This document shows, in pieces, positions 3 to 9,596 of a stretch of DNA of 64,000 nt. Both the position numbers and the translations under genes were made by a program. The notes under the pieces were generated by a model. It was not told the DNA's origin, made no database searches, and was given only the letters and a program-made list of their open reading frames with translations. Source of the stretch: a bacterium (lineage in GTDB: Bacteria; Bdellovibrionota_C; UBA2361; SZUA-149; JAQTWB01); contig JAQTWB010000008.1 in the NCBI GenBank assembly GCA_028689495.1, positions 1 to 64,000 of the forward strand, in the 5' to 3' direction. Positions within the stretch are counted from its first letter, which is position 1. Each line of letters opens with the position of its first letter.

Positions 3-425
3 GCTTCGCAAATTGTCGGTAACCTGACAGGGACGGTGACCCAGGAGGTCGCCAGCGGGATGCTGATTTATCCTTACACCAGAGATATGGAGCTTGAGGC
101 TGATTCACTGGGGATGTTTATCATGGCGCGGGCAGGCTATGACCCGGAAGAGGCGTTGCGCTTTTGGGAGAAGGCGGCGACAGATCCGGATTTCTCTTCA
201 TCAGTGGAATTTCTCTCGAGTCACCCCGTGGCCAGTGATCGATTAACTCGTTTGAGAGAGCAGTTGCCTGAAGCGGAGAAGTTGTATCACTCTTCGTCTC
301 GTATTGGGGCGAGTGCTGAGATTACTCCGAATATCGCTCCTGAGAAATCGTTGCTAAATAACTTTCGTAAAGGACGGCCGCTTACCGAGGAGAGGTACCA
401 GTCTTATCGGCGGAGTAATCAGTGA
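3..425 (+). CDS. M48 family metallopeptidase, C-terminal part (partial at window edge)
   Basis: The reading frame is open from the window edge, so the gene starts upstream. The visible part holds ELEADSLG, the family's third zinc-ligand motif (ExxxD), followed by the helical segment ARAGYDPEEALRFWEK typical of BepA/LoiP-like M48 peptidases. The HExxH motif must lie before the window. Family members are periplasmic zinc proteases that act on misfolded envelope proteins. The stop codon overlaps the GTG start of the next gene by four bases, so the two are probably co-transcribed. Family is clear; exact subtype is not. Confidence 0.85.
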   Translation, partial: ASQIVGNLTGTVTQEVASGMLIYPYTRDMELEADSLGMFIMARAGYDPEEALRFWEKAATDPDFSSSVEFLSSHPVASDRLTRLREQLPEAEKLYHSSSRIGASAEITPNIAPEKSLLNNFRKGRPLTEERYQSYRRSNQ

Positions 426-1507
426 GGCGAGCTCTTCACATTGTATCGGGCGATTTATGGGGCGGAGCTGAAGCGCAGGCCGGGTTGATATTATCAGGCC
501 TGACGGGTTATTCTTGGCAAGGAGCGGTGCTACTTTTTAACGATGGAGTAGTTGCAGATCGTTATCGAAAAGCTGAGATCGAGTGTGGTGTCCTGAAAGA
601 GAAAGGAGGGACGCTGTCACTTATTCGACAGGCACTGACCACGGCACGGACAATCAACCCGGATATTATTGTCACTCATGGGTATAAAGAGGCTTTTATC
701 GGTGCTTGTTTGTCTTTTTTTTTACGACGTCCACTTGTTACCCAACATCACGGAGCAACTGAATTAAACCGGGGTTTCTCGGCCTGCAGGATGTATTGTT
801 ATCAAAAGCTTCATCGCTTTATCAGTCGCTTTATCGCAAGCCGTGTTGTGACTATCTCACACGCATTGTCGCGCCAGCTTGATTACGATGACGTTTCCGG
901 TCTTTGTGTTATCCACAATGCCGCCTCTGTGCCTCCTGTCGAACTGGCAACACGTGATAGTCAAGCTGGTATCAGTCTGTATATCATTGGTCGGCTTGTG
1001 CCAGTGAAAAACGTTGCACTGGCGATTGATATTATTCGGAGCCTGACGCGTAATGATGTGATTTTAAATGTCGTTGGAGACGGACCGCTGGAAAATCAGT
1101 TAAAGGATTATGCGGGAGAGGTGCGAGACTCGGGGAAAATTGCTTTTCGTGGTTACAGTTCTGATATCGCTGGAGCGTTATCCAGAGCTGATTTTTTGCT
1201 GATCACCTCTATCAGTGAAGGTATTCCAACTGTGATGCTAGAGGCGCTTTTGCTTGGCGTTCCAGTGGTTTCTGTGGAGCTACCGGGTGTTAAGGAAATA
1301 GCGGAGATGTTGCCAGCCGAATCCATTGTTTTTATGCGACGTGATCCCGTAGCAGCGGCTGAAGACCTGGAAAATTATATTGCTATACTTCCCAGGCTAA
1401 TCGAGGCTGCAAAGCTCAACCGCGAATTCAGTCGGAGATATTTTTCATCGCAGCGTCTGGCTCAGGAACATTGTGATTTGTACGACAAAGTTACAGGTTG
1501 TCGTTGA
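422..1507 (+). CDS. Glycosyltransferase, GT4-like (GT-B fold)
   Basis: A 361-residue GT-B enzyme. The N-terminal Rossmann half begins RRALHIVSGDLWGGAEAQA, with the glycine-rich loop of GT4 enzymes. The C-terminal half has YIIGRLVPVKNVALAIDI (start of the nucleotide-sugar domain), VGDGPLENQL, and the donor-binding stretch TSISEGIPTVMLEALLLGVPVV with the E-x7-E-like signature. The start is GTG at 422, overlapping the peptidase stop. It probably adds a sugar to a surface glycan from a nucleotide donor on the cytoplasmic face; donor and acceptor cannot be told. The LPS-core genes begin about 2.6 kb downstream. Confidence 0.85.
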   Translation: MRRALHIVSGDLWGGAEAQAGLILSGLTGYSWQGAVLLFNDGVVADRYRKAEIECGVLKEKGGTLSLIRQALTTARTINPDIIVTHGYKEAFIGACLSFFLRRPLVTQHHGATELNRGFSACRMYCYQKLHRFISRFIASRVVTISHALSRQLDYDDVSGLCVIHNAASVPPVELATRDSQAGISLYIIGRLVPVKNVALAIDIIRSLTRNDVILNVVGDGPLENQLKDYAGEVRDSGKIAFRGYSSDIAGALSRADFLLITSISEGIPTVMLEALLLGVPVVSVELPGVKEIAEMLPAESIVFMRRDPVAAAEDLENYIAILPRLIEAAKLNREFSRRYFSSQRLAQEHCDLYDKVTGCR

Positions 1508-1689
1508 TGTGAATGGGGGTAGCCTGGGTGTTGCACGAACTGTTCGACAACTGTCGTTGTTTTCTGCGCATATCAATCAACAGTGACATTCAAATTGGCG
1601 TTGTCTTTCGTAGGATGCGGGCCTTGTGTCTGCCCGACTGTGTCGTTGCTGATGCACGCAGTTCAGTCGCTAGAATTTTCAACCTCCGG

Positions 1690-1806
1690 TTAACCGGCAA
1701 TACCGGCGCCAATTTCTCCGGCAAGAGGTGCTGCGAGAACAAGAAGCAGTGCACCGAGCAGCGCGATGCATAACAGTTCCAGACGAAATATTGATGAAGT
1801 TTTCAT
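1690..1806 (-). CDS. Small single-span membrane protein (38 aa)
   Basis: A short minus-strand frame starts ATG at 1806, preceded by AAGG about eight bases upstream, and stops TAA at 1690-1692. The peptide opens MKTSSIFRLELLCIALLGAL and continues LLLVLAAPLAGEIGAGIAG. That is a positively charged start, one hydrophobic helix of about 20 residues and a glycine-rich tail, which reads as a designed transmembrane peptide rather than chance. It has no recognised family. The flanking stretches 1508-1689 and 1807-2095 hold nothing else I can support; a plus-strand frame at 1513-1773 looks non-coding. Confidence is moderate because it is so short. Confidence 0.45.
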   Translation of the reverse strand: MKTSSIFRLELLCIALLGALLLVLAAPLAGEIGAGIAG

Positions 1807-2095
1807 ATACAGACCTTACAACAGAAAACGTTTGATCGTTACCGTTGTATTGGTCGGTGTATCCTCTGCCAGCCTTGAGGAGTAATTTGTTGCTCTGACA
1901 CCGGAGGGGGCGCGTTCGGGACATGCAAGTTTCTCGATACCTTTGTTCATCCGTTTGGTGGAATGAACGTTCATCCATAAAAAAAAAGGCGCTGTGACAA
2001 AAGTTTTACTTCAAGTATGTTGAAACAGGACATCCTACTAACTACAATCCACTTAAAGTTTGGTGTGGCAGAAAAAATAGTATGGGAGGAGGGCG

Positions 2096-3133
2096 ATGAA
2101 ACAGGTAAGATGCAAAACTCAAAGCCAGAAGTATCGAAGACACGTAGTTAGTTCAGCCAGGGAACAAATGATGACTGAGCCAATCGATTTTAAGTCCGCA
2201 GTGTTTAATCCTCTTGCCGACGACATTACAAACACATGGTCCAGCCGTGCCAGTCAGGTGATATGTGTAAATGCCTATCCGAATGGCATTACAGTTTCAC
2301 TGCATAACAATCATAAGGTGCTTGGTGAGTTCGAAAACAGTTCAAGCGCGGAAAGTGATCTTCATGCCTGGCCAGCTCAGTTTCACCTGCGTTTGAAAGA
2401 TATGCGTGATTACAATATGGCTCCCGGCCGATACTTTCTTTACAAGGAATCGTATCGCGAATCGCTTGAAGGCATTCTTTCGCGTCTGCACAAGCAGGGG
2501 AAGCTATCGTCAACGGTTATTTATTTCGGGACGACTCACGACGCTTTTTTTGCTTTCCACAAAAAGTTTCCGATCACCATGACCTGCTTGCAGCTGTTTG
2601 AGAAGTATGCTCCGGCAAAAGTTGTTGTCCAGACACGATCTCCAATGGTGATAGCAGCTTTGCCGATGTTGAAGGCGCTCGGCAGTTCAGCCGTTGTTGT
2701 GATTCCGATTGAAACGATTTCGGAGAGCGCTGTCGCACGCTTCACTCCCGGGGCGGCGAAGATATCTGAGCGGCTGATGGCAGCTGATGGGTTGCGGGCT
2801 CAGGGTATTGAAGTGAACCTTGCTGTTTCACCGATGCTTCCATATGGCGACATGCAGTCCAAGGCGCTTGAGTTTGCGACAACTCTTGCCCGTCATGGCG
2901 ATTACGTTACCTTTGGTAGTTTCACATCGGGTGATTCGGCCGATGAGAATGTTTTGAAGCGCATTGAAACAGTTCGCCGTCTGGTTGAGGCTCGTGAGTA
3001 CAAAATGTTGCGACCTTATAGCTGGCGTTATGTTTATTATGCTGTGAAAACGATTGCCCCGGAAAAACTTGCCTTGCCCCTGGATGACATCCACGGTCAT
3101 GGCGCGGTGCAACTCTCGATTTTCGCGGCTTAG
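2096..3133 (+). CDS. SplB-like / radical-SAM-fold protein lacking the cluster cysteines
   Basis: 345 residues, ATG at 2096 behind a strong GGGAGGAGGG ribosome site. Residues ~143-251 follow the C-terminal half of the SplB/Rv2578c radical SAM family: YFGTTHDAF, VVVQTRSP (family: ivTKSp), FTPGAAKISERL (family: lEPgapsp..Rl), LRAQGIEVNLAVSPMLP. The region where the family has NPYxGCxHxCxYC reads NAYPNGITVSLHNNH (about residues 59-73), without cysteines. The whole protein has only Cys6, Cys57 and Cys164, so no CxxxCxxC is possible. It could be a pseudoenzyme or a non-SAM derivative. Fold assignment is by eye from motif order, so moderately sure. A clean terminator follows. Confidence 0.5.
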   Translation: MKQVRCKTQSQKYRRHVVSSAREQMMTEPIDFKSAVFNPLADDITNTWSSRASQVICVNAYPNGITVSLHNNHKVLGEFENSSSAESDLHAWPAQFHLRLKDMRDYNMAPGRYFLYKESYRESLEGILSRLHKQGKLSSTVIYFGTTHDAFFAFHKKFPITMTCLQLFEKYAPAKVVVQTRSPMVIAALPMLKALGSSAVVVIPIETISESAVARFTPGAAKISERLMAADGLRAQGIEVNLAVSPMLPYGDMQSKALEFATTLARHGDYVTFGSFTSGDSADENVLKRIETVRRLVEAREYKMLRPYSWRYVYYAVKTIAPEKLALPLDDIHGHGAVQLSIFAA

Positions 3134-3175
3134 CGATGTGATAGTTGGTGGTGGGAAGATGTGAAAACCGGAAGT

Positions 3176-3204
3176 GAGAGCAGCCACAGGCTGCTCTCTT
3201 TTTT
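3176..3204 (+). terminator. Rho-independent terminator of the SplB-like gene
   Basis: Perfect 10-bp stem GAGAGCAGCC (3176-3185) / GGCTGCTCTC (3189-3198) with loop ACA, followed directly by six T. It lies 43 bases after the stop of the SplB-like gene. Confidence 0.93.
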
Positions 3205-3250
3205 ACTGCCCTCTTTTTACTACTCTCTTTCGGTGGTTATCGTCGGCTGT

Positions 3251-3928
3251 TTAGTCAAACCAGTTGAATGACCAGAAACTGTCATCCCCATCTTTAGTGT
3301 TAGTAGCTTTTTCCTCTACTTGTTCAAGGCAGATAGTTTCAAATTGTTTTTGTGTCATTTCGCCCTTGATTTCATAAGACTCAACAACATAACCTGAACT
3401 GACAACTCGGCAATTATTTTCGTCGAGGTTGCCAACTGGAAGTGCTGTCATTGTGATTCGCGATTCCATCGCCGGAATGAAAAACGAGATTGAAGCGGGA
3501 GAACCCGTTTCTGCCACGGCAGTTATAACCATCAACTGTAGCTCTTCTTCGGCATGTTTTTCAGCTCCTGTTACATCGGTGGTTAATGTGCCACAGTAAA
3601 TGTTACTGAAAGCCCGACCGGAACTGAACTTTGAACTAATTACAGTGATTGGAAATGAGCAGGTTTTGTTGTCATTATTGTTCAGCAGATCTTGCGGTAT
3701 GCCGCTGAACAAGCCGAGAGATAGCCCGGTGTAGGTATAAAATTCCACCTCGGTCATTGTTTTAAAGCGAGCGGTCATTTTTGCGACAAGGTCAGAGACT
3801 TTTGCCGCTCCAATAACTACCTGTTTTTCCCTGCCGGGAACGGTGAAATTCACCTGGGAAACATCGGTAGCCCAGCTATTGGTCGCCGTAAGTGCCAGAC
3901 AAACGACAAAAAATTTGATGATGTTCAT
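3251..3928 (-). CDS. Secreted protein of unknown function
   Basis: 225 residues. The chosen start, ATG at 3928, is preceded by GGAGG at ideal spacing and gives a classical signal peptide: MNIIKFFVVCLALTATNSWA, likely cleaved before TDVS. The mature part has no family I recognise. It has four cysteines (NKTCSFP, NIYCGTL, ENNCRVV, ETICLEQ) that could form two disulfides, and an acidic C-terminus ending FWSFNWFD. It is probably periplasmic or exported. It stands alone between a plus-strand terminator and the divergent LPS operon. Its leader has an attenuator-like structure shared with the DUF4914 gene at 58.8 kb. Confidence 0.75.
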   Translation of the reverse strand: MNIIKFFVVCLALTATNSWATDVSQVNFTVPGREKQVVIGAAKVSDLVAKMTARFKTMTEVEFYTYTGLSLGLFSGIPQDLLNNNDNKTCSFPITVISSKFSSGRAFSNIYCGTLTTDVTGAEKHAEEELQLMVITAVAETGSPASISFFIPAMESRITMTALPVGNLDENNCRVVSSGYVVESYEIKGEMTQKQFETICLEQVEEKATNTKDGDDSFWSFNWFD

Positions 3929-3946
3929 AAAAACCTCCAAAAAGTT

Positions 3947-4001
3947 AAAAAAAAGTGGTCTTCCCACCACGCGGGGTAATTAACCCGAGAAGGTGAAGAC
4001 C
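3947..4001 (-). promoter_or_regulatory. Attenuator-like leader of the secreted-protein gene
   Basis: In the minus-strand transcript the leader contains GTGGT (3970-3966) / ACCAC (3959-3955), a 5-bp stem with a 6-nt loop. Eight U (3954-3947) follow, then GGAGG-UUUUU-AUG. The right arm can instead pair upstream: GGTCTTC (4001-3995) with GAAGACC (3963-3957), extendable by three pairs past a bulge. The two pairings exclude each other, as in an attenuator or riboswitch expression platform. No known aptamer consensus was recognised. Confidence 0.45.
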
Positions 4002-4153
4002 GAAGGCCGTATACCCTGATAGCTGTGTGTAGAGCTGGATGCCTTGAACTATTCCCAACTCTTGGTCAATAGTGTTTAGTTGCCTGCAAGTGAGAGGTTC
4101 ATAAGCTCGGCGCTTAAATAATATAGATTTAGTAAGAATACAAGGCTGGTCCC

Positions 4154-4744
4154 TTGAAAAGTTATGTTTTCCTTGACCGTGACGGAACGATAAACATTGA
4201 TTATGGCTATGTTTTTCGTCCCGAACAGATCGATCTTGAACATGGTGCCGCCAAAGCGATAGCCTCACTTTGCAGGTCCGGGTTCAAAGTTGTGGTTGTC
4301 AGTAATCAGTCGGCTATCGGTCGCGGCATGGCGTCGGATAAGGATGTCAGGCAAACCAATGAGGAGTTGCAGCGCAAGTTACTGGCTGAGGATGATGACG
4401 CGAAAATCGATTCTTTCCTTTATTCCCCCGATGCACCGGGTTATTTGGATGCCTCAGGTTGTCCCAGCCAGACGCGAAAGCCGGCGACAGGCTTGCTCAG
4501 GCCACTACTTGAGGCCGGAAAGGTGAACGTCTCAGGCTCCTGGATGCTTGGCGACAAGCTTAGTGATATTGATTTCGGCGTGGCAATCGGTTTACCGATT
4601 GAGCAAAATTTGCATCTCCTTACCGGTCACGGCATGGAAGATCGGGAGAAGGTGACGCAGAAATATCACGGGCAGGTGAATAGTTTTCCCTCTATTCGTC
4701 AGGCGGTGGAATTTATATTGTCACAGAGGAAAAGTTTCTGCTGA
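4154..4744 (+). CDS. gmhB: D-glycero-D-manno-heptose-1,7-bisphosphate 7-phosphatase
   Basis: 196-residue HAD-family phosphatase. Motif I is FLDRDGTIN (DxDGT), motif II is VVVVSNQSAIGRG, and the zinc-loop region has SPDAPGYLDASGCPSQTRKP; motif IV is MLGDKLSDIDFG. The SNQSAIGRG segment and the R-K-P before the lid are typical of GmhB rather than HisB. It removes the 7-phosphate during ADP-heptose synthesis in the cytosol. No ATG is usable: the frame starts TTG at 4154 behind AAGG (4142-4145), and an in-frame TAA lies just upstream at 4133. It overlaps the next gene by one base. The zinc loop has only one obvious cysteine, fewer than the E. coli enzyme. Confidence 0.88.
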   Translation: MKSYVFLDRDGTINIDYGYVFRPEQIDLEHGAAKAIASLCRSGFKVVVVSNQSAIGRGMASDKDVRQTNEELQRKLLAEDDDAKIDSFLYSPDAPGYLDASGCPSQTRKPATGLLRPLLEAGKVNVSGSWMLGDKLSDIDFGVAIGLPIEQNLHLLTGHGMEDREKVTQKYHGQVNSFPSIRQAVEFILSQRKSFC

Positions 4745-5808
4745 TGAAGATATTGATAGTTCAGCTTGGTTTCATTGGCGACGTTATTTTGTCGACTCCG
4801 GTAATTACTGCCCTGGCTGAGCTCTATCCACTGGCCTCAGTTTCTGTTCTTACGACACCGGTAGCTCAGGAGCTTCTTCGCTTTGACAGGCGTTTGGCTA
4901 AGGTTCACGTCTATGACAAGCGCGGTCGACAGTCCGGGGTATCCGGATTGCTTGAAATGGGGAAAGAGCTTCGCTCAGAAAAATACGATGTTGTTTTCAG
5001 TTTGCACAAATCAGCTAGAACATCTTTGCTGCTCAAGCTTGCCGGAATCCCACGACGTTATGGGTTTCGGCGGGCGGCGCTTAATTTTCTATATACCGTT
5101 GCTTCTGAACGCGATGACCTGTTTCACGAAGTACTGAGAAATCTCGCGGTGCTGCGCAGTGTCGGCTATAAACCGGAGGAGGATTTTGCTCCACAAATGT
5201 TTCTGGCACTTTCACCGGAAGCTTGCGACAAGGCTGATGAAATTTGGGGGGTTGTCCCGGTTGAAAAGCGCATTGTTCTGGCGCCGGGTAGCGTCTGGGA
5301 AACAAAACGTTGGTCGGCAGAGCAGTTTGCCAGACTTGGCGAGATACTGCTTGATCGAGGTTTTACTTTGGCACTTGTTGGTGGTCCAGCCGATCGGCAG
5401 GCGGGGGAGACCATCCTTGAACACCTTCAACAGAGAACTGATTTTCAGAGAAGCGATTCTGACCGGGTAAAAAATCTGATTGGCACATTAACTCTTCTGG
5501 AGTCGGCAGCGATCATAGATCGTTCCTCAGCCCTGGTCAGTAACGACAGTGCTCCGCTTCATATCGCCTCGGCGCTTCAGGTTCCGGTTGTCGGGGTGTT
5601 TTGTGCGACGATTCCCGAGTTTGGTTTTGGTCCTTGGAAAACACCTCACCGCACCATTGGACTTTATGAACTGTCATGTCGTCCTTGCCGGGCTCATGGA
5701 AGTCGTATTTGTCCAACCGGGACCGCTAAATGTATGAATGAACTTTCGGCTGAAGCGGTTTTTGCGCAGTTGGATGAATTATTTACTCAGCTTCGGTCGA
5801 ATCAATGA
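4744..5808 (+). CDS. waaF: LPS heptosyltransferase (GT9, WaaF-like)
   Basis: 354 residues. It starts MKILIVQLGFIGDVILSTPV, the GT9 N-terminal loop, and contains VLAPGSVWETKRWSAEQFA, LVGGPADR and the donor-site motif SNDSAPLHIASALQVPVVGVF. The closing CRPCRAHGSRICPTGTAKC with ELSAEAV is typical of heptosyltransferase II. It transfers L-glycero-D-manno-heptose from ADP-heptose to the LPS inner core. The start ATG at 4744 overlaps the gmhB stop, and its own stop overlaps the kinase start (ATGA). Which of the two GT9 genes is HepI and which is HepII is inferred only. Confidence 0.85.
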   Translation: MKILIVQLGFIGDVILSTPVITALAELYPLASVSVLTTPVAQELLRFDRRLAKVHVYDKRGRQSGVSGLLEMGKELRSEKYDVVFSLHKSARTSLLLKLAGIPRRYGFRRAALNFLYTVASERDDLFHEVLRNLAVLRSVGYKPEEDFAPQMFLALSPEACDKADEIWGVVPVEKRIVLAPGSVWETKRWSAEQFARLGEILLDRGFTLALVGGPADRQAGETILEHLQQRTDFQRSDSDRVKNLIGTLTLLESAAIIDRSSALVSNDSAPLHIASALQVPVVGVFCATIPEFGFGPWKTPHRTIGLYELSCRPCRAHGSRICPTGTAKCMNELSAEAVFAQLDELFTQLRSNQ

Positions 5809-6575
5809 ACGGCAAATATGCGGAAGTCGATGTTTACGGTCGCCGATATTGTCTGATGCGCAGACAGTCGCAGGTAATGCTGGTTCATGTAAAGGCCGAC
5901 GTGCAGTCAATTGAAGCAGGTTATCGGCAATTGTCTGTGAAACAAACCGGTTCAGCCCTTGCTGGTGGAAGAGGTGAGGTAAAGATTTTTCAGGCAGGCG
6001 AATCGATGAGAGCAGCTTGTCGCAATTATTGCCGTGGTGGTTTTGTGCGTCATTTCGTTTCAGAATCGTTTATTGGTCTGCCGCCGTTTTCGCTTGAATC
6101 GACTCGTTCATTTCGTGAACTTGAAGTGCTCTCTTACCTTTTGTCAAAAGGTGTGCCTGTCGTCAGGCCTCTTGCCGCGGTAGCCAGTTTTCGTTCGTTG
6201 GGACTTGTTTATTCAGCATCGCTTCTCACCCAATATGAAGAAGAAAGTGACAGTCTGTTTAATCTGTTCAGGTATTCAGCTCCGGGTATTGTCGCCGATG
6301 AAACCTCGGGTGGGCGCCTCGCTTTCCGTGCTGGCAGGCTGGCAGGTCGAATTCTTACAGCCGGTGTGTATCACCCAGATCTTCATCCTGGTAATCTGAT
6401 TCTTACAGCTAACGATGAATTGAAGGCCCTTGATTTTGATAAGGCTTTTATTATGCATGAGCCTTCGGGGAGACGTTATGCGGCGGCTCTGGCAGAGCGC
6501 TGGCGGCGTAGTATTTCGAAGTATAACTTTCCTCAGCTCCTGGCTGAGCAGTTTGAGGCTGGTCTGCGGAGTTAA
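5805..6575 (+). CDS. LPS core sugar kinase (Kdo kinase / WaaP-InaA family)
   Basis: 256 residues, ATG at 5805 overlapping the upstream stop. It is a kinase-like fold with LAGGRGEVKIF near the N-terminus as the nucleotide loop, a catalytic loop VYHPDLHPGNLIL (HxDLHxxN) and the metal motif ALDFDKAF, matching KdkA/WaaP enzymes. Such proteins phosphorylate Kdo or heptose in the LPS inner core. Its place between two heptosyltransferases supports this. Kdo versus heptose specificity cannot be decided by eye. Length is close to KdkA (about 240 residues). Confidence 0.78.
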   Translation: MNGKYAEVDVYGRRYCLMRRQSQVMLVHVKADVQSIEAGYRQLSVKQTGSALAGGRGEVKIFQAGESMRAACRNYCRGGFVRHFVSESFIGLPPFSLESTRSFRELEVLSYLLSKGVPVVRPLAAVASFRSLGLVYSASLLTQYEEESDSLFNLFRYSAPGIVADETSGGRLAFRAGRLAGRILTAGVYHPDLHPGNLILTANDELKALDFDKAFIMHEPSGRRYAAALAERWRRSISKYNFPQLLAEQFEAGLRS

Positions 6576-6621
6576 TCAGCGCAAGGAAGTTTTAGGCGGA
6601 GCAATTGAGGAATCAGTTTTT

Positions 6622-7701
6622 ATGACAGTTTTGCAAAAGCCAAAAAAGGGAGCTCGAATACTTATTGTCCTTCATGGGGCGATAGGCGATGTCGTTCGTG
6701 CTTTGCCACTGGCTGTGCGACTAAAGGAACAGCGGCCAGATATATTCCTTGCCTGGGGAGTCGAGCCGCGCTCGGCTGATATTCTTCGAGGTCATTCATC
6801 GATTGACAAGTTGTATGTTTTTCAACGAGGCAAAGGGGTAGGTGCTTACCTTAATTACCTGCGCGAACTTCGCCAGGGCAAGTTTGATATAGTGCTTGAC
6901 CTGCAGAGGCACATAAAAAGTGGCGCAACCTCGTTTTTTTCCGCTGTTTCACGGCGCATCGGCTTTCATCCCAAGAGTTCCCGTGAGTTTAACTGGCTTT
7001 TTAATAATGAGTATATTCCTTACACGGAAAAGTTCTCCTCAAAACTCGCTCAGTACCAGTTGTTTGGCGACTTGCTGGGCCTCGACAGAGATGTGCACCT
7101 GTCTTCAGGATTGAAGGTAGATAGATCGTGTTCCGAGCGAATAAAAAATCTGCTTGTTCAGGAGAGCAATACCAACTGTAGTGGTCTGGTGGCGGTGTTT
7201 CCCGGGTCAACCTGGAGTTCGCGTTTCTGGCTGGCCGAACGCCATGCTGAATTGAGTGAAAGACTTTATCGACAACACGGTTTGGTTTCTGTCTATATTG
7301 GTGGCCCGGGTGAGAGAGTGTTTATCGACCGGGTAAAAGAGGTTTGCAATGTTCCGCTGATTGACCTGGTCGGTCAGACTGCTCTGGGCGAGTTACCGGC
7401 TTTGTTCGCTAACGTGATTCTTGGTATTGGTGCTGATTCTGGACCAATGCACATTGGAGCGGCATGTGAGGTGCCACTTGTCACCCTCTGGGGGGCGACG
7501 AGTGCTTTGCGCAGCGCACCTCTGGGCAGTGAAGACTATACAATTTCGGCAGATGTGGCATGTGAACCGTGTTATCGCAGCCGCTGTCCGATTCGGGACC
7601 AAATTTGTATGCAAAGCATTACGGTAGATATGGTTTACCATCAGGTACTGCGTGTGCTGGAAAAAAAATCTTTTGTCGGGAGACAATCAGTTGTCAGATA
7701 G
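6622..7701 (+). CDS. LPS heptosyltransferase, GT9 family (second copy)
   Basis: 359 residues from ATG at 6622 (GAGG 11 bases upstream). The frame is open further upstream into the kinase gene, but the GT9 core starts at ILIVLHGAIGDVVRALPLAV, so the late start is preferred. Further motifs: VAVFPGSTWSSRFW, VYIGGPGERVF, GIGADSGPMHIGAACEVPLV and CEPCYRSRCPIRDQICMQ. It resembles WaaC/WaaF-type transferases. With the first GT9 gene it probably builds the heptose region of the inner core. It ends inside the start of the GT2 gene. Confidence 0.82.
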   Translation: MTVLQKPKKGARILIVLHGAIGDVVRALPLAVRLKEQRPDIFLAWGVEPRSADILRGHSSIDKLYVFQRGKGVGAYLNYLRELRQGKFDIVLDLQRHIKSGATSFFSAVSRRIGFHPKSSREFNWLFNNEYIPYTEKFSSKLAQYQLFGDLLGLDRDVHLSSGLKVDRSCSERIKNLLVQESNTNCSGLVAVFPGSTWSSRFWLAERHAELSERLYRQHGLVSVYIGGPGERVFIDRVKEVCNVPLIDLVGQTALGELPALFANVILGIGADSGPMHIGAACEVPLVTLWGATSALRSAPLGSEDYTISADVACEPCYRSRCPIRDQICMQSITVDMVYHQVLRVLEKKSFVGRQSVVR

Positions 7702-8596
7702 TTCAGTAATCGCGAGTAATTTGGATGTTACGGGAAATTCTGCTGTGACGGGAAATTCTACTGTTGTGGGCCGCTTGCCAGTATCGGCATTTGTCATCGC
7801 CTTTAATGAAGAAGAGCATATTGTCGGCTGCATACAAAGTCTGTCATTTTGCGATGAAGTTATAGTTATTGATTCTTTTTCAACCGATCGAACCGTTGAG
7901 TTGGCTCGCGAAGCCGGAGCCAGGGTGGTGCAGCAGAAATGGACGGGGTATCGGGCGCAAAAGGAATATGGCCTGTCTCTGGTAACCCATGATTGGGTAA
8001 TCAACCTTGATGCCGATGAGCGGATTTCAGCTGAGCTTCGCCAAGGCATTTTGCGTGTGCTTGAGGAAAAGGCGGCAAAGACGGTTACGAATTTCGATGA
8101 TGAATGTATCGGCTATTACATCAATCGTGTGGTCTATTACCTGGGGCGTTGGTGGCGCTCCGGGGGCTGGTATCCGGAATATCGTCTGCGTTTTTTTCGG
8201 CGTGATGCCGTCCGCTGGGGTGGGGTGGACCCCCATGAAAAACCGCTTACGGATGGGCGGACTGAAAGATTGGCTGGCGAAATCGAGCATTATACCTATA
8301 AGGACATGCATGACCAGTTTCGCCGCCTTGATAATTTTTCTTCAATTGCCGCGAGGGAGGAGTTCGGCCGGGGTAAACGAAGTGGACTTGTGAAAATTAC
8401 ATTCAATCCACTTTTGCGTTTTGCAAAATTTTACCTATTCAAGCGCGGCTACCGCGAGGGATTCCCCGGTTTGCTTGTGGCTTTGAACGAAGCCGTATAC
8501 ACCTACATGAAATACGCCAAGTTGTGGGATGAGGAATTTCGCAGTTGCCGGTCCGCTGGCACAGCGGGCAGAGAAGTTGGAAATCAGGAGAGGTGA
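7691..8596 (+). CDS. Glycosyltransferase family 2, WaaE/KdtX-like
   Basis: About 301 residues. The GT-A domain begins LPVSAFVIAFNEEEHIVGCI and has VIVIDSFSTDRTVELAREAG, WVINLDADERIS (DxD), and the WaaE-type block WRSGGWYPEYRLRFFRR, followed by GGVDPHEKP and IEHYTYKDMHDQFRRL. WaaE enzymes add a glucose to the first heptose of the core. The start is uncertain. TTG at 7691 has GGGAG eight bases upstream; a GTG at 7652 is also in frame. The N-terminus before the GT domain is a low-complexity stretch in which an 18-nt unit (coding VTGNSx) is doubled. Confidence 0.82.
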   Translation: MSDSSVIASNLDVTGNSAVTGNSTVVGRLPVSAFVIAFNEEEHIVGCIQSLSFCDEVIVIDSFSTDRTVELAREAGARVVQQKWTGYRAQKEYGLSLVTHDWVINLDADERISAELRQGILRVLEEKAAKTVTNFDDECIGYYINRVVYYLGRWWRSGGWYPEYRLRFFRRDAVRWGGVDPHEKPLTDGRTERLAGEIEHYTYKDMHDQFRRLDNFSSIAAREEFGRGKRSGLVKITFNPLLRFAKFYLFKRGYREGFPGLLVALNEAVYTYMKYAKLWDEEFRSCRSAGTAGREVGNQER

Positions 8597-8597
8597 G

Positions 8598-9596
8598 ATG
8601 ACAAACAGCGCTGAGTTACTGAATCTGGTTGAGGCATTTGTTGGCACTGAGGTGCTGGTTGTCGGAGATTTGATTGTTGACCATTATATCTGGGGCGGCG
8701 TTAATCGTATTTCTCCCGAAGCTCCGGTGGTGGTGGTTGACGTTGAAAAAGAGGAAAGGCGGCTTGGTGGAGCGGCAAACGTTGCACATAACCTCTGTGC
8801 TCTTGGTGCAGCGGTGTCGATATGCGGTGTAGTTGGCGATGACCTGGAAGGACGCGAGCTGACCGATCGTATGGAGCGGATGAAGATTGATACAAAAGGT
8901 GTTTTTGTTGACCGCTCTCGTCCAACGACGATTAAAACGAGAATTGTCGCCCATGCGCAGCAGGTTGTGCGTGTCGATCGTGAATGTCGCCTGCCACTCT
9001 CCGAGGCTTTTCAGGAGAGCATCAGTGCCGAGGTTCGTGCCCAGTTTGCTCGTGTGAAAAGTATCGCTGTATCTGACTATGGCAAGGGAGTTGTAACTCC
9101 ACTAATTTTCAAACGTCTTGAGGGACAGGCCGGGATTAATGGTGTTCCGGTTGTCGTCGACCCGAAAGACCCCAATTTCCTCAATTACACTGGTGCGACG
9201 GTGATCAAGCCGAACCGCAAAGAGGCCGAGCAGGCGAGCGGTATGAAGATTGCGACACGCGATGACGCGGTTGGCGTGGGGCACAAACTGCTTTCACTCT
9301 GGAATACTGATTTTGTCCTGATCACCCTTGGTGAAAAAGGGATGGTTCTGGTCTCACGACTTGATGAATATTCCGAGCCAGTCGCCATCGATACTCTGGC
9401 TCAGGAAGTTTACGATGTCTCCGGTGCCGGAGATACGGTGTCGGCGGTGTTTACCCTGGCCCTTGCCGCTGGCGGTTCTCCGCGTCATGCGGCGGAACTG
9501 GCTAATCTCGCAGCCGGTATTGTTGTTGCGGAGGTGGGAACAGTTGCTGTTGAGAAAACGGAGTTGATCTCACGTTTACGTGAATTCGCTGTATGA
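8598..9596 (+). CDS. hldE: D-glycero-beta-D-manno-heptose-7-phosphate kinase (HldE domain I)
   Basis: 332-residue PfkB/ribokinase-family enzyme. ATG at 8598 follows GGAGAGGTGAG one base after the previous stop. Motifs: VLVVGDLIVDHYIWG, RRLGGAANVAHNLCALGA, VSDYGKGVV, VVDPKDPNFLNYTGAT, IKPNRKEAEQASG and the catalytic VSGAGDTVSAVF. It phosphorylates heptose-7-phosphate at C1 to give the substrate of GmhB. E. coli HldE is a fusion with a nucleotidyltransferase; this protein stops after the kinase domain, so the ADP-heptose synthase must be encoded elsewhere. It completes the heptose theme of the operon. Confidence 0.9.
   Translation: MTNSAELLNLVEAFVGTEVLVVGDLIVDHYIWGGVNRISPEAPVVVVDVEKEERRLGGAANVAHNLCALGAAVSICGVVGDDLEGRELTDRMERMKIDTKGVFVDRSRPTTIKTRIVAHAQQVVRVDRECRLPLSEAFQESISAEVRAQFARVKSIAVSDYGKGVVTPLIFKRLEGQAGINGVPVVVDPKDPNFLNYTGATVIKPNRKEAEQASGMKIATRDDAVGVGHKLLSLWNTDFVLITLGEKGMVLVSRLDEYSEPVAIDTLAQEVYDVSGAGDTVSAVFTLALAAGGSPRHAAELANLAAGIVVAEVGTVAVEKTELISRLREFAV

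Follow-up and report, generated by a model that had tools for sequence, protein, structure and literature searches.

Identity and Expression Signals of the Gene

The gene at positions 2096 to 3133 of the window, the whole 64,000-nucleotide stretch of bacterial DNA analyzed here, raises the question of what a protein does that resembles radical SAM enzymes such as SplB and Rv2578c and yet lacks the cysteines that define them. The initial annotation described a SplB-like protein in which NPYxGCxHxCxYC is missing and only three cysteines exist, possibly a pseudoenzyme that kept the barrel. Radical SAM proteins are recognized by their cysteines, and this gene, which is near-universal in its phylum and encodes none of the cluster cysteines, has no Pfam, NCBIfam, or PADLOC annotation. 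The coding sequence and its expression signals are as follows:

2096–3133, + strand: coding sequence of a radical SAM-like protein without the cluster cysteines, 345 aa (ORF with ATG start and TAG stop)
2084–2093, + strand: ribosome-binding site GGGAGGAGGG
2020–2048, + strand: sigma-70-like promoter, with −35 TTGAAA at 2020–2025, a 17-bp spacer, and −10 TACAAT at 2043–2048
3176–3198, + strand: intrinsic terminator, a 10-bp stem followed by TTTTTT

The ribosome-binding site is strong, and GGAGG-like sites are found at most homologs. This site and the terminator had both been pointed out in the initial annotation, and together with the promoter they make it plausible that the gene is expressed as a unit. 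No significant Pfam match and no PADLOC match were detected for the window protein, the latter speaking against membership in a defense system. The top NCBIfam match was the PA0069-family radical SAM model NF033668 (E 6e-11, residues 128–249 of the window protein), with a score of 41.9 bits versus a curated cut-off of 360 bits. The models for radical SAM mobile pair B and Rv2578c (the latter weaker, E 0.004) also matched far under their cut-offs.

A Radical SAM-Like Barrel without the Cluster Cysteines

AlphaFold predicted a radical SAM barrel for the window protein (pTM 0.84) and a radical SAM-like barrel for a distant member that is 34% identical (L017). With Foldseek, the window model matched spore photoproduct lyase first (E 1.2e-5, TM 0.46), the distant member was nearest to viperin and spore photoproduct lyase, and the top matches overall were spore photoproduct lyase, Elp3, and viperin, at E about 1e-5 and probability 1.0. 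The TM-scores of the family models are modest (0.4–0.5), and identification of the predicted fold as the partial TIM barrel of the radical SAM superfamily is based on the E-values plus sequence. The nearest solved fold is that of the spore photoproduct lyase SplB (PDB 4fhc, 4fhg, 4k9r), in keeping with the relationship first proposed for the protein. A PDB search by sequence gave no informative match. Two structural features were assigned:

2255–3070, + strand: radical SAM-like barrel, residues 54–325 (AlphaFold, Foldseek, and alignment)
2255–2308, + strand: β hairpin, residues 54–71, VICVNAYP/ITVSLHNN (AlphaFold secondary structure and alignment)

The SplB/Rv2578c-type motifs quoted in the initial annotation are present in the ORF, and the barrel motifs kept in the window protein are GTTHDAF (145–151), QTRSP (179–183), R226, and SPMLPYGD (245–252). 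By alignment and AlphaFold, the hairpin of residues 54–71 occupies the place of NPYxGCxxxCxYC in Cys-bearing relatives, and the window and L017 models agree in placing strands 54–61 and 64–71 at the position expected for the cluster loop and first helix. The absence of NPYxGCxHxCxYC was described correctly, and the window protein has NAYPNGITVSLH at the CxxxCxxC position. The cluster-loop region of other members likewise reads N/D-x-Y/F-x-x-G-I or similar, e.g., DSFANGIAFGQH and DSYARGISIGRI, the exception being the very divergent member L051. The only cysteines of the window protein are C6, C57, and C164, as counted before, and none of them is conserved (at most 13 of the 37 family members). 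SplB requires three cluster cysteines plus a fourth, catalytic cysteine (PMC3742179), and the window protein has no counterpart of C91, C95, or C98 (Bacillus subtilis numbering, PMC3742179). The three cysteines of the radical SAM [4Fe-4S] cluster are missing in every member, CxxxCxxC being found in none of the 36–37 family proteins, the window protein included. The family protein almost certainly lacks an Fe-S cluster and probably works without the ancestral radical chemistry.

In a MAFFT alignment with Cys-bearing relatives, whose column assignments close to the hairpin carry some uncertainty, D149, T180-R181-S182, R226, and P246 are kept in the family, and E155, R162, R187-D188, and D190, near-invariant in the Cys-bearing relatives, are lost. 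Apart from P246, these positions were also the ones considered as candidates for a SAM-binding pocket. The protein might still be an enzyme that dispenses with Fe-S, its barrel binding SAM or another nucleotide and using newly conserved residues: D149, R181-S182, E206, R226, and the LPYGD loop (248–252) are invariant or nearly so in 37 of 37 members, a strictness beyond what a mere scaffold would call for, and E125 and E206 are fixed in the family but not in Cys-bearing relatives. However, the residues near-invariant in those relatives disappeared along with the cysteines, the family has no conserved cysteine, and the hairpin histidine (H70), which would be an attractive metal ligand, is missing throughout one family, where IDP is found, ruling out a family-wide metal site rebuilt on it. 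On balance we regard continued catalysis as unlikely.

Distribution and Origin of the Family

A search of relatives identified homologs of the window protein at 33–52% identity. Using a profile of 20 members, we detected an ortholog in 39 of the 46 genomes of the phylum (the same set represents class and phylum alike) and in 18 of the 20 high-quality genomes (completeness of at least 90%, contamination of at most 5%). Apart from paralog B there is one copy per genome, and none of the phylum orthologs carries CxxxCxxC, a motif whose presence in close homologs would, according to the initial annotation, have refuted it. Gene decay was ruled out, the homologs in the 39 genomes being full length and free of internal stops. 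All of the organisms encoding the family are uncultured. A search of 337 genomes outside the phylum gave just two matches at E ≤ 1e-30, both Cys-bearing (CxFGCSYCYV). We also scanned 84,980 species genomes for a single conserved peptide pattern and kept 80 loci; such a scan detects only members matching the pattern and does not prove absence elsewhere. Among these loci, phylum members lack the cluster cysteines and the others have them wherever the motif is readable. We found no viral spread of the family. A second SplB-like copy, which the initial annotation had suggested looking for, was not found in the window's own genome.

In a midpoint-rooted tree of 118 proteins, built from 189 columns of the barrel by a quick method, paralog B and the family form one clade (100% SH-aLRT, branch length 1.04 changes per column) apart from every Cys-bearing protein, the simplest reading of which would be an old, single loss of the cysteines that was then kept across the phylum. 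The loss reported for the one genome stands, refined in that it appears to be phylum-wide, single, and old and not a recent event. By its sequence the family is a pseudoenzyme descendant of the SplB/PA0069/Rv2578c branch; it lacks the motif that defines radical SAM enzymes, scores too low for the PA0069 family, and is not SplB. The idea of a pseudoenzyme that kept the barrel is well supported by the fold and the homologs. The family suggests that a radical SAM barrel can persist for something other than radical chemistry. In the open-access papers searched, we found no account of such a Cys-less radical SAM-like family.

Paralog B is a second, faster-evolving Cys-less protein. Its gene is divergent from that of the main copy (A), which it adjoins, in five genomes and stands alone in L295 (L021, 3472–4257; L022, 6791–7624; L023, 2782–3750; L024, 6134–7090; L025, 6561–7394; L295, 1296–2210). 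It lacks the clamp motif described below. An active catalytic partner encoded nearby was ruled out, the neighbor in the five genomes being this Cys-less paralog. The divergent A/B pair of some genomes recalls the radical SAM mobile pair A/B (TIGR04470 and its partner), to which there is a weak profile match (E 5e-4); however, both mobile-pair proteins have CxxxCxxC, whereas neither A nor B does here, and the genes here are chromosomal. Five phylum genomes also encode a true Cys-bearing PA0069 protein.

A Predicted Sliding Clamp-Binding Motif at the C Terminus

The β-clamp-binding motif is Q-φ-x-[L/M]-[F/L], with QLxLF the strongest form, and is often located in a disordered C terminus (PMC11139829). 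Comparison of the homologs identified such a motif at the end of the window protein:

3110–3124, + strand: predicted β-clamp-binding motif QLSIF, residues 339–343, followed by AA and the stop codon

Residues 331–345 have a mean pLDDT of about 52 in the AlphaFold model, corresponding to a disordered and accessible tail. All 36 homologs whose C terminus lies on the contig end with Q[LIVM]x[LMIF]F, mostly followed by AA, and Q339 and F343 are invariant (36/36) despite a variable linker before the motif. Under the strict definition of position 4, 29 of the 36 fit and 7 have I or F, the window's QLSIF having I. Among 230 neighboring ORFs encoding 200 aa or more, the final 20 residues never contained a motif of this kind. 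Comparable motifs (QLELF, QLVLF, QMSLF, and QITLF) are found in the Y-family polymerases of the phylum, and Y-family polymerases elsewhere are known clamp clients. The host DnaN contains RFPDY and ends in MPMRFE; we take its RFPDY and MPMR stretches to resemble those of the E. coli clamp. The invariant tail motif indicates where the protein works: it strongly implies docking on the clamp, and binding of the clamp by the tail is, from the sequence comparison, quite probable. It also makes the role of the protein directly testable, because a simple binding assay could place it at the replication clamp.

The C-terminal Ala-Ala was considered as a ClpXP-type degron; most members have it but others end in GRG, GTN, PPS, and further variants, and hence it is not defining. 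The window's genome has two identically scoring copies of a Y-family polymerase, 34 kb apart on one contig (G000:C195, 28954–29304 and 63339–63689), representing either a duplication or an assembly artifact.

A Proposed Clamp-Tethered Pseudoenzyme and Its Possible Role as a DNA Sensor or Hub

The catalytically dead Y-family polymerase ImuB persists as a hub bound to the clamp: although inactive, this relative of a DNA enzyme is under selection together with its clamp-binding motif (PMC10421592), and it provides a functional analog for the window protein. The two are otherwise unrelated, ImuB having the Y-family polymerase fold and the window protein a radical SAM-like barrel, and ImuB is part of the SOS response whereas the window gene has no SOS-type box. 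SplB-like enzymes have been found in operons with the ImuB-C domain (PMC3765255).

By analogy with ImuB, we favor the explanation that the family consists of pseudoenzymes that lack Fe-S, are tethered to the clamp, and serve as a DNA sensor or hub. The [4Fe-4S] loop would have been lost once, before the orders of the phylum diverged, and a β hairpin would have taken its place. The barrel was retained, and so was a flexible C-terminal tail whose QLxLF motif should dock on the β sliding clamp of DNA polymerase III. Brought to DNA by the clamp, the protein may use its SplB-like barrel to recognize a feature of the DNA, a nucleotide, or a partner protein, and the site could then be marked, or other clamp clients recruited or excluded, noncatalytically, as with ImuB. 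The following points were counted against this explanation: the isoleucine at position 4 of QLSIF, the gene neighborhoods, the lack of an SOS-type box, and the TM-scores of 0.4–0.5. Taken as a whole we find it reasonably likely, and for the hub or sensor role considered by itself the chances are about even.

An Operator-Like Palindrome Upstream of the Family Genes

Alignment by eye of the upstream regions identified a 17-bp palindrome, STTYAA-N5-TTRAAS, which is represented in the window by the following element:

2009–2025, no strand assigned: operator-like palindrome CTTCAAGTATGTTGAAA, differing at one position from STTYAA-N5-TTRAAS and overlapping the −35 box with its right half

Of the 34 family genes, 30 have exact copies in the 300 bp upstream (47 copies), compared with 6 in 402 kb of surrounding DNA. 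The motif was picked after viewing these sequences, which by itself accounts for part of the enrichment at family genes but does not affect the low counts elsewhere. Among the other four genes, three, including that of the window, have one-mismatch copies, and the copy at L033 lies just past the limit. Close pairs are spaced 42–43 bp, about four helical turns, in 13 of 14 cases. The paralog B genes carry their own copies, and elsewhere in the genomes the palindrome is at or near the control count. In the order of the window, the −35 box falls on the right half of the palindrome, as expected of a repressor operator. An RNA hairpin in place of a DNA operator was ruled out, since the half-sites do not covary as pairs and the −35 box of the window's order is overlapped by the site. 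SOS control of the gene was also ruled out: the palindrome is absent from lexA loci (one chance site in 89 kb) and from Y-family polymerase loci (none in 96 kb), and the gene has no LexA box.

The palindrome's presence at family genes and at those of paralog B, often as spaced pairs, and its near-background frequency elsewhere resemble autoregulation. Conceivably, the radical SAM barrel has turned into a clamp-tethered DNA-binding regulator that, with paralog B, binds the palindrome of its own promoter and, through QLxLF, the clamp, coupling control to replication. If true, its own expression, and perhaps that of the adjoining thioredoxin gene, would be tied to replication, and the protein would represent the first case of a radical SAM enzyme giving rise to a DNA-binding regulator. 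However, neither a helix-turn-helix nor another recognized DNA-binding element was seen in the protein, the pattern is explained as well by a dedicated repressor encoded elsewhere, and in two genomes the site stands beside a small protein near lexA, possibly another target. We consider an autoregulatory role improbable.

The conserved small protein of those two genomes (L293, G000:C215, 1571–2032; L296, G004:C10, 1118–1518) is about 113 aa in length, contains ERNLLAAVLARAICDAFGSAQCDRHVVRSARQWLFG, has no Pfam match, and adjoins lexA with the palindrome between them. The lexA loci of the phylum (L208–L234) share, read by eye, an upstream element of the form TTCTAnT...GCATATA (TTGCATATA-like in its second half), a possible LexA box unlike that of E. 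coli.

Gene Neighborhood

The neighborhoods give no pointer to DNA repair, and each half of the phylum has its own. In the window's order, an M48 peptidase is encoded nearby and LPS heptose genes lie downstream, and in the other orders the family gene is divergent from a thioredoxin gene (18 genomes), with a thiolase gene next (16 genomes). Because the context varies while the barrel, tail, and palindrome are constant, the neighbors are weak evidence for function. The least probable alternative is that QLxLF is a relic or coincidence and that the protein is an ordinary partner, metabolic or redox, of thioredoxin or the envelope genes nearby, as this synteny could suggest, but a relic would hardly keep Q and F unchanged in every homolog while the linker and following residues vary, and the synteny itself is unlike in the two halves.

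Positions 3–9596 of the window form an LPS core cluster encoding the end of the M48 peptidase, glycosyltransferases, a gmhB-like HAD phosphatase, two heptosyltransferase-like proteins, a Kdo/WaaP-type kinase, and a PfkB kinase (hldE/rfaE-like). A 239-aa secreted-looking protein, weakly calycin-like (E 0.007), is encoded at 3251–3970 on the − strand between the family gene and gmhB. In the other orders (L036–L053), several flagellin genes are located 2.5–8 kb from the family gene, in many cases with the thiolase gene between.

Cysteine-Bearing Relatives

The PA0069 (NF033668) and Rv2578c (NF038135) proteins share with the family the barrel motifs TDPY/F, T-K/R-S, R226, and P246, and PA0069-type proteins also share its QLxLF/QLxLL-like ends; they differ in carrying NPYxGCxHxCxYC together with E155, R162, and R187-D188, all of which the family lacks. 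The Cys-bearing PA0069/Rv2578c enzymes often end in a clamp-like motif:

L164, L166, L167, L168, L236–L241, and L243–L246: Cys-bearing proteins with clamp-like C termini (QLSLF, QLRLF, QLDLF, QLTMF, QLSLL, or QMSLL)

About 14 of the 16 PA0069-type tails inspected, from this phylum and from plasmid records, are of this kind, the exceptions being L165 and the shortened L242. A polX, dnaE, or UvrD-type helicase gene adjoins some of these loci (L239, L242, and the relative L247). The open-access papers searched contain no report of clamp motifs on PA0069-type enzymes. These enzymes are widespread and of unknown function, and a clamp tail would class them as clamp-borne DNA-repair enzymes.

The top-scoring Cys-bearing relatives (L076–L134) are mostly without a clamp tail, so that the tail of the family may have been either inherited or regained. 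The highest profile scores among them, about 130 bits, belong to SplB-like enzymes of Alicyclobacillus, Acidobacteria, Chloroflexota, and Gemmatimonadota (e.g., L078, L076, and L117), of the TPTSP/QTRSPLV type, which share QTRSP and T-P-x-x-P with the family but keep the cysteines and have GFN-type tails with no clamp motif. The spacing of those cysteines is unusual in a group that also includes L084, L112, and L117: CX6CX2C (L103), CX7CX2C (L076), CX11CX2C (L078 and L085), and CX6CX3C (L111 and L120).
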